64,000 bases of DNA, taken from assembly GCA_035936835.1 (NCBI GenBank), contig DASYVT010000199.1:1-64000 (forward strand). Direction: 5' to 3'. This document shows positions 16,075-63,613 of this stretch, in pieces. The notes under the pieces were generated by a model that worked only from the letters and a program-made list of their open reading frames with translations, was not told the DNA's origin and did not search any database. Source of the DNA: Candidatus Methylomirabilota bacterium (GTDB taxonomy: Bacteria; Methylomirabilota; Methylomirabilia; Rokubacteriales; CSP1-6). The first letter of the stretch is position 1. Every line of letters begins with the position of its first letter. Both the position numbers and the translations under genes were made by a program.

Positions 16075-17055
16075 TCATGGAATGAGTCGATCCGCCCGCA
16101 GCAGCAATGATTGTGAAATCGTAAGGCCGAGCGTCTTGGCGGTCTTGAGGTTGATGACCAGCTCGAACGTCGTCGGCTGTTCAACAGGCAGATCGGCCGG
16201 CTTCGTCCCTTTGAGAATCTTGTCCACCAGGCGGGCAGCCTGGCGGCCCAACTCATAATTGCTCGCAGAATAGCTGGCCAGTCCGGTCCGCTCCACATAG
16301 AACGATTCGTCGAACATCGTTGGGATCGCCCGCCTGGGCGCGATCTCCAGAATAAGACCGGGGATGTTCAACGAGAGGTGCCGGGGCGAGAATATTCCGT
16401 CCACCTCACCCTTCCGGACCCCGGTGATCGCCGCTCGGGCCTCCTCTTCGGTCCGCACCGGTTTTTCCACGAGCGTGAGGCCGAGGCGGCGCGCGGCGTC
16501 GCGGTACACCTCCAGTCTCGAGACAGCGAGTGCGTTTGTCGCGTCGTAGACCAAGAGAACGCGTTTCAGGCCCGGGATGAGCTCGCGAAAGATCTCCATT
16601 CGCTTCGGCACGAGCTCGAGCTCGGCGATCCCAGTGATGTTTCCACCGGGGCGCGCGAAGCTCGTCACCAGTCCTGCTCCTACCGGGTCGCTCCCGCCCA
16701 CGAAGACGATCGGGATCCGATTCGTCGCCATCTGGGCGGCCTTCGCCTCATTGCCTCCTCCACTCGCGACAATGATATCCACCCCGCGGCGGACGAGGGC
16801 ACGGGCTGCCTCGGGTAGCTCGGCGACGTTGCCCTGTGTGAAGCGCACTCCGATCACGAAGGTCTCGTTCTCGCGGTATCCAAGATCCTGAAGGCCGTCG
16901 CGGAGCCCGACGATGGCCGGCGTCGGTCCCCATGACTCCGTCAGTGCTCCGATCTTGACCAGGCGAGGCGCTTGCGCGTCGGTCGCGCGCGCCATCGGCC
17001 CTGCGAGCGTGAGCACGATTCCGAGCACAAGCAGAACGCCGCGGCCTGCCGTCAT
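16075..17055 (-). CDS. PF04392-type ABC transporter substrate-binding protein
   Basis: A 326-residue exported binding protein of the ABC_sub_bind family (PF04392). The signal peptide is VLLVLGIVLTLAGPMARATD, and the mature protein starts near PRLVKIGALTE. Family motifs are VAELPEAARALVRRGVDIIV, IPIVFVGGSDPVGAGLV, SFARPGGNITGI and GRQAARLVDKILKGTKPADL. ATG 17055 overlaps the stop of the TlpA gene (ATGA), so it is coupled to it. Relatives are often encoded without permeases, as here, and may act as sensors or with distant permeases. The ligand is unknown; the coupling to a thioredoxin is notable. Confidence 0.9.
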   Translation of the reverse strand: MTAGRGVLLVLGIVLTLAGPMARATDAQAPRLVKIGALTESWGPTPAIVGLRDGLQDLGYRENETFVIGVRFTQGNVAELPEAARALVRRGVDIIVASGGGNEAKAAQMATNRIPIVFVGGSDPVGAGLVTSFARPGGNITGIAELELVPKRMEIFRELIPGLKRVLLVYDATNALAVSRLEVYRDAARRLGLTLVEKPVRTEEEARAAITGVRKGEVDGIFSPRHLSLNIPGLILEIAPRRAIPTMFDESFYVERTGLASYSASNYELGRQAARLVDKILKGTKPADLPVEQPTTFELVINLKTAKTLGLTISQSLLLRADRLIP

Positions 17056-17669
17056 CGGGGGGCCGGACCTGGGGCCGGCTCGGCCAGCAGCGCCGCGATA
17101 AGCGCGCGGGCCGGCGCACTCTCCCACTGGCGAGGTCCGATGGCCAAGGCGATGGCGCGTCCATCCCGGCCGACGACGAACGTCGTCGGAAGCCCAATGA
17201 CACCGTACAGGGCATTGATCTTGCCGTCCCGATCAAGCACGAGTGGGAACGTCAGGCCCAGCTCCTTGGCATAGCGCCTGACAGCCTCCTTGCTCTCCCG
17301 GGTATTGACCCCGATGATGGCGAGTCCCCGCGACGAGAACTCGCGCTGGAGCCGCTCCAGCGCGGGCATCTCTACCCGACATTCGAGACACCAGCTCGCC
17401 CAGAAGGTCAGAACAATGACCGTCCCTCGGTACTCCGTCATCGACAGTTGCCGGGCGTCGAGCGTGCTGCCACTGAACTGGGGAGGCGCCGTGCGGGAGG
17501 TATAGCCACGGAGGTCGAGGGTCTTGAGAAGAGATCCCAGCGCCGGCTCGTCGGCGCTCGCGGCACCGGCCAGGACAGCAATGAGCAGCCCGAACGCGAG
17601 CAGCCCTGCCCGGGCGGTGAGCCAGGCGGGCGGCCATGCGTCCATCGCCGCCGGGCGACTCGGCGTCAT
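17052..17669 (-). CDS. TlpA-like periplasmic thioredoxin with CLEC active site
   Basis: A 205-residue TlpA/ResA-type thiol-disulfide oxidoreductase (PF08534/PF00578). A signal peptide or anchor spans residues 20-38 (ARAGLLAFGLLIAVLAG). The redox motif is WASWCLECRVEMPALERL near residue 95, and the cis-proline loop is GLPTTFVV. It starts 2 bp after the stop of a cysteine-free selenocysteine peroxiredoxin and overlaps the downstream binding protein by 4 bp. This makes it the best candidate reductant for that peroxiredoxin in the periplasm. The partner role is inference from gene order and from the missing resolving thiol. Confidence 0.92.
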   Translation of the reverse strand: MTPSRPAAMDAWPPAWLTARAGLLAFGLLIAVLAGAASADEPALGSLLKTLDLRGYTSRTAPPQFSGSTLDARQLSMTEYRGTVIVLTFWASWCLECRVEMPALERLQREFSSRGLAIIGVNTRESKEAVRRYAKELGLTFPLVLDRDGKINALYGVIGLPTTFVVGRDGRAIALAIGPRQWESAPARALIAALLAEPAPGPAPR

Positions 17670-17671
17670 GG

Positions 17672-18235
17672 TCAGCGCTTGGCGAGCACCTCTCGGATAT
17701 CCCGCAGGAGGGTGTCGCTATACACAACCGTCGTCCCGCCGTTCTCGATGATCCACTTCTTGCGGATGATGCCCTGCGGATCAATCAGAAAAAGCGACCT
17801 GTGCGCCAACATATTTTTCTCATTGAAGACCCCGTAACTGCGCATGAGCTTCCGGTCGGGGAAGTCGCTGAGCAGCGGGTACGGCAGCTTCAGCGATTCG
17901 GCGAACGTCTGCTGCGAGAAGGTCAGGTTAGCGCTGGCGGCGAGGTTCTGGATGCCCAGGTCTTCGAAGCTCTTATAGCTGGCCTTCCTGGCCAACAGGT
18001 TCGCCGCTCACGTCGGAACGAAGTCGGCGCCGTAGAACTCGAGGAGAACCCACTTCTTCCCCCGAAAGTCGCTCAGCGAGATGTCGGATCCAGTGGTGCT
18101 CGCCAGCGTGAAGGCGGGCGCCGGCTCGCCCACCTCCACCGCCCTCGCCGGCCCTGGACCGACGGCGACCACGGTCAGTCCCAGTACCGTTGCCAGCAGC
18201 ACGACCCCAAACGTTCGGCTCACGAAGTGCACCAT
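17672..18235 (-). CDS. prxU: Selenocysteine peroxiredoxin, exported, cysteine-free (copy 1)
   Basis: A 187-residue peroxiredoxin (AhpC/TSA family) if the in-frame TGA at 18010-18008 is read as selenocysteine. The N-terminal part has a signal peptide (residues 7-32) and VEVGEPAPAFTLASTTG. The active-site strand is EFYGADFVPT followed by UGA and AANL. The frame continues with [20 protein letters not shown] and HRSLFLIDPQGIIRKKW, the family's C-terminal half including the conserved active-site Arg. The UGA stands where the peroxidatic Cys belongs. There is no cysteine anywhere, so resolution needs an external thiol. A SECIS-like hairpin follows. The gene ends 2 bp before TlpA, and GGGGGAGG precedes the start. 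Standard gene calling would split it at 18008. Confidence 0.9.
17966..18010 (-). promoter_or_regulatory. Bacterial SECIS-like hairpin after UGA (copy 1)
   Basis: Counting from the base after UGA, GUUGGCC (+12 to +18) pairs with GGCCAGC (+24 to +30) around the loop AGGAA (+19 to +23); plus-strand coordinates of the hairpin are 17978-17996. A second, outer pairing of +6 to +11 with +37 to +42 has five of six pairs. The position and the G-containing loop fit the bacterial SECIS that binds SelB. Confidence 0.75.
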
Positions 18236-18287: not shown

Positions 18288-18884
18288 CTACTGCTTCCCA
18301 GTCATCGCGCGCGCAACCTTGAGTATGTCCTCGCTGGGGAAAATGGCGTTGTTCGCGATCAACCACTTCCCCCGGACGATCCCCTGCTGATCCACCAGGA
18401 AGAACGCCCGCCGTGCAGCCGTATTCGGTCGATGCTCGACCACCACACCGCTGTCCTTCAAGGGGCCAATCTGGTCGGGCCAAAGGACGCCGTAATTCCG
18501 GATAACCTGGAGGTCCGGAGAGTCGCTGAGGAGCGGGTACGGGAGCTGAAGCGACTCCGCGAACGTCTGTTGTGCGAAGGTGTGGTCAGCGCTGATCCCG
18601 AGAATCTGGACGTTTAAATCCCGGAACCTGCCATAGTCGACCTTCCTGGTCGACAGGTTCGCCGCTCACGTTGGGGACTCGCCGACGTAGAACTCGATAA
18701 GAACCAGCTTGTTGCCGCGGAACTGGCTCAGGCTGATCTTCTCCCCCGTCGTGCCGGGGAGCGTAAAGTCCGGCGCCTTCTCCCCGACCTCCAGGGCTGT
18801 GGTCACGCTGACTCCTACGAGCACGCCGGCCAGCAGCACGCCCAACAGCAACCAGCTTCTCACGAGCTTCGGCAGCCTGCTCAT
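18288..18884 (-). CDS. prxU: Selenocysteine peroxiredoxin, exported, cysteine-free (copy 2)
   Basis: A 198-residue peroxiredoxin with one in-frame TGA (18668-18666) at the peroxidatic position. Residues 1-31 are a signal peptide ([20 protein letters not shown]), then [17 protein letters not shown]. The active site is [21 protein letters not shown] translated the frame past the UGA by hand. It stays open to TAG 18290-18288 and contains [17 protein letters not shown] and [18 protein letters not shown]. Copy 1 has the same order, with [17 protein letters not shown]. There is no cysteine in the protein. Start ATG 18884 has AGGAG 7 bp upstream. It is the first gene of the operon; copy 1 starts 52 bp downstream. 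It reduces peroxides by family. Confidence 0.9.
18624..18668 (-). promoter_or_regulatory. Bacterial SECIS-like hairpin after UGA (copy 2)
   Basis: After UGA, GUCGACC (+12 to +18) pairs perfectly with GGUCGAC (+24 to +30) around the loop AGGAA; an outer stem GAACCU (+6 to +11) with AGGUUC (+37 to +42) is also perfect. Plus-strand hairpin coordinates are 18636-18654. Compared with copy 1, two of the seven inner pairs differ by compensatory changes while loop and spacing are identical, which supports a selected RNA structure. Confidence 0.8.
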
Positions 18885-62146: not shown

Positions 62147-62701
62147 TTAGGCCCCGAAATCCTTTAGCGCCTTGAGGACCTCGTCCGCGCTCAGCAGATC
62201 GAGCGAGTTGTCCATGACCTTCACGAATCTGACCGTGCCGGTCTTGTCGATGATGAAGAACGCCCGCTTCGCGTATCGGTAGACCGGGCTGTCCTCCTTC
62301 GTCACCATCGCGCCGTACGCGGGGAGCATCTGGCGCCGGAAATCCGACAGGAGCAGCTGCCTGCTGCCGTTCTCCTTCCGCCACGCGTTGAGAGCGAGGA
62401 AGTGATCCGTGCTGACGCCCACGACCTGGGCGCCCGCGGCTTCGAACTGCGGCAGGGCCGCCTCGAAGCCGTTCAGTTCCTTCGTTCAGGTGGGGGTAAA
62501 CGCCGCGATGAATGTGTAGAGGACCACGGGCCCTTTGGCCGTCAGGTCGGAGAGCTTGATCGGCTTGCCCTCAGGCCCCATGAGCGCGAAGTCGGGCGCC
62601 TTCTCTCCAACCTCGAGCGCTCCGGCCGCGCCCGCAACGACCAAGGCGAGCAGCGCGCCGGCAAGAACACCCAAGATCAGTGACCGTTTCGTGGGCATCA
62701 T
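62147..62701 (-). CDS. prxU: Selenocysteine peroxiredoxin, exported, cysteine-free (copy 3)
   Basis: A 184-residue peroxiredoxin with TGA at 62488-62486 in the peroxidatic position. Signal peptide SLILGVLAGALLALVVAGAA, then [17 protein letters not shown]. The active site reads TFIAAFTPT-UGA-TKELNGF, the classic T-P-x-C(U)-TKE pattern. The frame continues with FEAAGAQVVGVSTDHFLALN, SDFRRQMLPAYGAMV and RYAKRAFFIIDKTGTVRFVK to TAA 62147. The Arg before AFF is the active-site Arg. There is no cysteine in the whole protein. It is more divergent from copies 1 and 2 than they are from each other and stands alone, 44 kb away, beside a small lipoprotein gene and a HicA gene. Confidence 0.9.
62444..62488 (-). 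promoter_or_regulatory. Bacterial SECIS-like hairpin after UGA (copy 3)
   Basis: After UGA, GAACUG (+7 to +12) pairs with CAGUUC (+37 to +42), and CGGC (+15 to +18) with GCCG (+33 to +36); the apical part holds GAGG at +22 to +25. The outer stem sits at nearly the same offset as in copies 1 and 2. The apical geometry is less clear than in those two. Confidence 0.6.
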
Positions 62702-62743
62702 CGTGTCCTCCCGCTGGGAGTATAGCGCACGGCCGCGGGAAGT

Positions 62744-62968
62744 TCACGCATCGCCCCACTCACGCCGGACTTTGGCGCGGTCGAAGCCGATGGACTCCAG
62801 CGAGCGTAGGATCATGCCGAGGTGCTTCTTGCTGAGGTCCTTGGAGCCGTGACCCGGCACCGTCACCTTGCACGTGCCGAGCACGAACTGCTTATGGCTT
62901 GTCTTGCCCGCAGGAACCTGCGCGAAGTTGTTGCGGATGAGCCACTTCTCCAAGTCCATTCGGGTCAT
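62744..62968 (-). CDS. hicA: HicA-like mRNA interferase toxin, orphan
   Basis: A 74-residue protein of the HicA fold (PF07927), a double-stranded-RNA-binding-like RNase. KWLIRNNFAQVPAGKTSHKQ carries the catalytic His after GKTS. VTVPGHGSKDLSKKHLGMIL, then RSLESIGFD, is the family ending. A HicB antitoxin gene is expected next to it, but neither side has one on this strand, so the antitoxin is missing or distant. Confidence 0.8.
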   Translation of the reverse strand: MTRMDLEKWLIRNNFAQVPAGKTSHKQFVLGTCKVTVPGHGSKDLSKKHLGMILRSLESIGFDRAKVRREWGDA

Positions 62969-63016: not shown

Positions 63017-63550
63017 TCAGTCCTCGCCCCCGTCGTCCTGCCACGGATCCCCTGACAAGGGCACCGGAAAGCCATAGTCGTAGCGCGCGGTTCGAGGCGT
63101 TGTAGCTGCCAGCGACCCTACCGCTATTGGATGATCCCGCGGCCCAAAGACGAACGGCTCACGCATCGGCCGGCGCGTGAGCGCACCCCCCGGCCGGCCG
63201 ACGGCTCGGGGTTGCGCCGCCTGTAACGCGCCAACCTGCGCGGCCTTGCGAATCGGCACGCCCTCGAGGAAGACACCAACCGCCGGGTCCGCGTACACGC
63301 CGAAGGCGTCCACCAGTGTTCCTCGAACGCCGCTGTGGCTTTCGATCGCGTAGACGATTGCCATGTCGTCCGGATCCGAAACACCCTCGAATCGATGGTA
63401 GGCTCGGATCACCAGCTCGGCCGCGTTGAATGTCTTCCCGCTATCGAGCGCCAGAAGTTTGCCGGCCTTCATTTGGAAGTGCTCGCGGAAGCCCGAACGC
63501 GCCAGATCGTCGACCGCGCTCGCCAGTGTCATGTATCCCGTCTGCGCCAT
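63017..63550 (-). CDS. Small conserved domain protein with extra C-terminal tail
   Basis: The first 100 residues (MTLASAVDDLARSGFREHFQ, RFEGVSDPDDMAIVYAIESH, GVRGTLVDAFGVYADPAVGV) match a small uncharacterised family that databases often mislabel as phosphoribosylpyrophosphate synthetase. The remaining 75 residues are Pro/Arg/Gly rich and look unlike the family. ATG 63550 with GGCGAGG in front is preferred to 63568. The tail may be a run-on after loss of the normal stop. Confidence 0.65.
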   Translation of the reverse strand: MAQTGYMTLASAVDDLARSGFREHFQMKAGKLLALDSGKTFNAAELVIRAYHRFEGVSDPDDMAIVYAIESHSGVRGTLVDAFGVYADPAVGVFLEGVPIRKAAQVGALQAAQPRAVGRPGGALTRRPMREPFVFGPRDHPIAVGSLAATTPRTARYDYGFPVPLSGDPWQDDGGED

Positions 63551-63613
63551 GATCAGCCTCGCCTTCATCTGTAATCATACGCCCGGTATCGAGTGGCGGA
63601 GGCCGGCTGATCA

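Follow-up and report, generated by a model that had tools for sequence, protein, structure and literature searches.

In the window, by which we mean the whole 64-kb stretch of DNA analysed here, a peroxiredoxin gene carrying an in-frame TGA occupies positions 62147–62701 of the minus strand. Read from the ATG at 62701 (a second in-frame ATG lies at 62698) to the TAA at 62149–62147, it encodes 184 aa with U72 at the TGA (62486–62488, minus strand), and this residue aligns to the peroxidatic Cys of solved PrxQ/Bcp proteins. The context FTPT-TGA-TKEL and the 112 open codons that follow the TGA, both given in a preliminary description of this DNA, are exact in the sequence. A Shine-Dalgarno-like GGGAGG, read from the sequence, lies 5 nt upstream of the ATG (62707–62712, minus strand). 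The N-terminus (62618–62701, minus strand) resembles a signal peptide when read by eye, with KR, a hydrophobic stretch and AGA at residues 26–28, and residues 6–22 form a lone, low-confidence helix in an AlphaFold2 model; on sequence grounds, the protein is probably exported. The AhpC/TSA (peroxiredoxin) domain recognised by Pfam (62225–62611, minus strand) includes the active-site residues T69 and R146.

Just upstream of this gene is a HicA-toxin-like gene (PF07927, 33.7 bits; 62744–62968, minus strand), and the next ORF upstream (63017–63568) had no Pfam match; no HicB was recognised. A search for a sigma-70-type promoter near the focal gene gave no match, and nothing in its neighbourhood was conserved between the source genome and the relatives. 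An Rfam scan of the 64-kb window likewise gave no match, and a tRNA scan of the window found none, the tRNA-Sec being located on a different contig.

Two other TGA-containing peroxiredoxins, mentioned in the preliminary description as lying 44 kb away, were located in tandem on the minus strand at 18315–18851 (TGA 18668–18666, followed by a canonical-looking SECIS hairpin with an AGGAA loop) and at 17693–18199 (TGA 18010–18008, also with an AGGAA-loop hairpin). The focal protein, which had been called more divergent, is 36% and 31% identical to the members of this pair and belongs to a different clade. The second tandem protein has Val in place of the usual Thr/Ser(−3) (GADFVPTU). Directly 3′ of the pair is a gene for a TlpA-like thiol:disulfide oxidoreductase with cysteines in a W-C-L-E-C motif (17052–17669, minus strand; AhpC-TSA 1e-25, Thioredoxin_8 2.7e-12), which makes this a second Prx-TlpA arrangement in the window. 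Elsewhere in the source genome, other AhpC/TSA-type genes with a catalytic TGA, UxxC types included, are found on contigs C138, C70, C122, C31, C47, C50 and C139 of the assembly (G000). A scan of the genome's contigs with the single focal protein returned just three distant relatives (32–37% identity).

Conservation of the TGA and the selenocysteine machinery

A family search covering 95 genomes of the phylum gave 56 strong matches in 44 genomes. Exactly one TGA was present in 54 of the 56, or in 54 of the 55 that cover the site: the match in G082 is cut off by a contig end upstream of the site, and the only site-covering relative without TGA, L087 (G035:C79), has TGT there. In pairs of relatives, dN/dS downstream of the TGA was 0.06–0.48, and it was low on either side of the codon. 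These substitution ratios indicate that the part of the protein downstream of the TGA is under purifying selection.

Many relatives end in TGA, which thus serves for ordinary termination in this lineage too, and in-frame starts downstream of the codon (ORF 62147–62422) might allow re-initiation. The TGA might then be an ordinary stop, and the locus a pseudogene or a 71-residue fragment with or without a re-initiated product. At the level of conservation this is refuted by the retention of the TGA in 54 genes; the low dN/dS on both sides, the position of the TGA at the catalytic residue itself and the covarying hairpin that follows also speak against it, and we consider it very improbable. That the codon is a TGC or TGT altered by sequencing or assembly error might be entertained for an assembly of 4.1 Mb in 236 contigs, in which the window is positions 1–64000 of contig C199. 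However, the same TGA is present in dozens of other assemblies, and 13 of the 23 AhpC/TSA matches in the source genome itself have one TGA (at the catalytic position in the 12 that were read), which leaves an error with next to no probability. The preliminary description had argued from three UGA codons in one window that mutation or sequencing error was hard to credit. Across the 95 genomes, 54 homologous genes retain the TGA, which is not the product of chance or base calling.

The same description had made its reading depend on selenocysteine machinery being present, and selA, selB, selD and a tRNA-Sec are all in the genome. The selA and selB genes are adjacent, the tRNA-Sec (anticodon UCA) is ~1.3 kb from selA, and the three lie within 5 kb of one another. 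The selD gene (L098, G000:C183:11015–11956) itself has one in-frame TGA; Sec-containing SelD proteins encoded in this way are already known. Among the relatives, selA scored above the cut-off in 56 of 60. G002 and G035 carry TGA versions of the gene, yet have neither selA nor selB above the cut-off, which assembly gaps at a single selAB locus would explain. A SelB-like fragment at a contig edge in G035 was not counted as SelB, its 39% identity over 86 aa being about that of other GTPases.

Which amino acid is inserted cannot be told from an open frame through a TGA alone, and UGA could be read as Trp, Gly or Cys by a change of code or by suppression. By contrast, the Sec machinery is complete, TGA serves as a terminator in the same family, and the site corresponds to the peroxidatic Cys of homologues, the lone non-TGA relative having TGT; insertion of another amino acid is thus highly unlikely. 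Taken together, these data support the idea that the mid-gene TGA almost certainly encodes selenocysteine. Within the same class, every genome of one genus has a PmoA/AmoA gene and a size of some 2.5–3 Mb, in keeping with Methylomirabilis; the larger source genome would then fit Rokubacteriales (phylum Methylomirabilota). A review (PMC13188914) cites Deng et al. 2026 for a Methylomirabilota MAG in which 63 selenoproteins are predicted. That MAG is probably from the same phylum as the source genome and, going by the figure as quoted in the review, a rich selenoproteome is to be expected in the phylum.

A candidate SECIS hairpin and its departure from the loop rule

The candidate SECIS element of the focal gene is a 13-bp hairpin at 62438–62470 (minus strand), consisting of 9 bp, a 2-nt 3′ bulge (AG) and a further 4 bp, with the five-base loop CCCTG at 62453–62457. 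With the T of TGA numbered 1, the hairpin spans +19 to +51, positions 19–31 pairing with 37–51. Across 24 relatives, 92.9% of the hairpin cells were paired, and 5 cells carried double changes compared to 0.6 in shuffles. In a larger alignment of 41 relatives (39 distinct), pair 29–39 was C-G in 32 and G-C in 6, while pair 31–37 was G-C in 34 and C-G in 2. On the tree, the carriers of G-C at pair 29–39 include a clade of four and the separate L049, so that at least two events are needed.

When folding energy was compared with that of synonymous recodings, all 27 Sec members gave z values between −1.9 and −4.8, whereas the TGT member gave +1.3 and had lost the hairpin. As the register was slid along the gene, the hairpin alone was extreme (mean z −2.84, 27 of 27 members below −1.6); at other registers at most a third of the 27 fell below −1.6. 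The family thus holds a natural SECIS control, with 27 Sec members that keep the hairpin and one Cys member without it. Applied to single paralogues of other families, the recoding test was weak for several, and no evidence was drawn from it.

The preliminary description had proposed a different outer stem, at +7 to +12 with +37 to +42 after the TGA (10–15 with 40–45 in the present numbering). It is perfect in the focal sequence (GAACTG/CAGTTC), but in 15–16 of 24 relatives two of the six base pairs cannot form, and its covariation is equal to that of shuffles. This stem was therefore set aside.

The published bacterial SECIS model places the loop 16–37 nt after the UGA and expects an unpaired G in it. 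The spacing from UGA to loop in the focal family, 28 nt, lies within this range. The loop itself reads CNCTG in most members, and G30 and G31 are paired, so that it has no leading unpaired G; the family hairpin agrees with the loop-G rule only if its top one or two pairs are counted as loop. No hairpin that obeys the literal loop-G model is conserved in the family, and 9 of the 41 members have none at all. Loops at most of the other Sec loci in the source genome and at the tandem pair fit the rule, as AGGAA, GGT or AGTT(G). According to the review, a subset of putative bacterial SECIS elements falls outside the model (PMC13188914), and the departure of the family hairpin from the loop-G rule hence does not exclude membership among selenoproteins. 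It does mean that genes of this kind may escape gene finders that rely on SECIS detection, and standard annotation of Methylomirabilota would truncate them at residue 71.

Active site and a probable TlpA-like partner

Translated across the TGA, the protein matched Pfam AhpC-TSA at 7e-30 (104 bits versus a cut-off of 26) and Redoxin at 2.8e-19, and the AlphaFold2 model (pLDDT 86) has a peroxiredoxin fold, nearest to Sulfolobus Bcp4 and Aeropyrum PrxQ. Of the active-site residues, Thr(−3) is retained in 32 of the 34 Sec relatives read, and R146 is invariant across the alignment. By contrast, the proline of the PxxxTxx(C/U) motif, Pro(−7), is replaced in all 34 (Ile in 29, Val in 3, Gly in 1, Leu in 1). 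The peroxiredoxin assignment is nonetheless kept because both domain and fold match. At NCBIfam cut-offs, the protein matched neither PrxU (NF040737, 37 versus 270 bits) nor Prx-SUH (NF045827, 39.1 versus 298 bits), and it falls in no curated NCBIfam peroxiredoxin family.

Among the peroxiredoxins of the phylum that were read, Pro(−7) is nearly always absent from the Sec types (L003, L004, L007, L056, L057) and is kept in the Cys types (L058–L060, L008, L009, L013), with L005 as an exception. Its loss may mean that the proline is less strictly required where Sec has been adopted.

The Sec relatives also lack cysteines. The PrxQ resolving Cys at +5 is missing in 34 of 34, which sets them apart from the 2-Cys PrxQ/Bcp enzymes, and cysteine is wholly absent in 32 of the 34; the focal protein is Cys-free. 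Lacking any cysteine, it has no means of closing an intramolecular disulfide in the usual way and would have to be reduced by an outside partner. The focal protein is thus predicted to be a 1-Sec enzyme that needs an external reductant. The replacement of Pro(−7), mostly by Ile or Val, and the loss of Cys(+5) in every member, together with the absence of the active-site Thr from the TGT relative, could instead indicate a Sec protein that is not a peroxidase, such as a thiol/selenol oxidoreductase or a chaperone-like relative. Conservation of Thr(−3) and Arg146 and the proximity to PrxQ/Bcp in both fold and sequence argue for a peroxidase, and we regard the non-peroxidase reading as unlikely. 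The reading of the gene as a selenocysteine peroxiredoxin, as first put forward in the preliminary description, is borne out by the complete Sec machinery, the conserved TGA, and the peroxiredoxin family and fold.

A candidate for the external reductant emerged from gene order. In 27 of the 42 family loci, a TlpA-like gene with a second TGA lies directly downstream on the same strand, at a distance of −27 to +32 nt (mostly −1 to +8) from the peroxiredoxin gene. Its motif is W-U-P-x-C, or W-U-T-x-C in two loci. The source genome has such a pair on contig C150, where the paralogous Sec-peroxiredoxin gene overlaps a TlpA-like W-U-P-T-C gene in a two-selenoprotein operon (L026, G000:C150:33741–34792; L002, L010). 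The L087 locus (TGT) is among the 27 paired loci; its peroxiredoxin has also lost Thr(−3), and its TlpA partner still has a TGA. The loci without a neighbouring TlpA gene comprise the focal gene, its close relatives L032–L037 and L104–L108, and the branch L040/L109/L111. A TGA-TlpA gene was found elsewhere in the source genome and in 14 of the 14 other solo-type genomes searched. The TlpA-like W-U-P-x-C selenoprotein is the likely reductant of the Sec-peroxiredoxin family; gene order suggests this link, which for the solo focal copy is one step weaker.

In the mechanism that we infer, SelB and Sec-tRNA would read the hairpin and insert Sec72. The selenolate of Sec72, kept in place by Thr69 and Arg146, would then attack H2O2 or an organic peroxide and be converted to a selenenic acid, as expected from the family. 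The simplest relay would run outside the cytoplasm from peroxide to the peroxiredoxin selenenic acid and on to TlpA-U, which for the focal copy would act in trans, its gene lying together with that of the paralogue on a different contig. Overall, we hold it to be highly probable that the focal gene encodes a Sec peroxiredoxin, itself probably exported, whose Sec72 is directed by the hairpin and which depends on an external reductant, the TlpA-like W-U-P-x-C protein being the best candidate. More tentatively, and with a somewhat less than even chance of being right, the family might form part of an all-selenium extracytoplasmic pair for peroxide reduction, confined to the phylum, in which a Cys-free 1-Sec Prx is recharged by a dedicated UxxC TlpA-like selenoprotein, the Prx mRNA using a SECIS class that lacks the customary unpaired loop G and is read by an adapted SelB.

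Relation to known selenoproteins

The best sequence and fold matches of the focal protein are PrxQ/Bcp proteins, namely Sulfolobus Bcp4 (3hjp), S. tokodaii PrxQ (4g2e/2ywn) and Aeropyrum pernix PrxQ (2cx3/4gqf). Where 2cx3 and 2ywn have the peroxidatic Cys, the proline and a Cys at +5, the focal protein has Sec, Ile and no Cys. The review also describes Sec peroxiredoxins (PF00578, TxxU), for example PrxU of Eubacterium acidaminophilum (PMC13188914). The focal family shares with the PrxU type the AhpC/TSA fold, the peroxidatic Sec, Thr(−3) and a hairpin just after the UGA, and differs in having no other Cys, Ile or Val at Pro(−7), apparent export and a SECIS loop without a leading G.

The two-selenoprotein operons given in the review comprise grdA-grdB, a Prx with a SELENOW-like protein, and a Prx-like with an AhpD-like protein (PMC13188914). 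None of these combines a Sec-Prx and a TlpA-like protein of the UxxC type. What they share with the present pair is that two Sec genes with linked roles in redox chemistry lie side by side in close coupling. A Cys-free Sec peroxiredoxin that is mostly paired with a Sec thiol:disulfide protein offers a clean system for two questions: what maintains Sec in an exported defence against peroxide, and by what route a 1-Sec enzyme is recycled. Sec-peroxiredoxins as such are already known, and the focal family is a lineage-specific variant of them; its points of interest are the lack of cysteine, the Sec-TlpA partner gene conserved in the family, and a SECIS element outside the usual loop rule.
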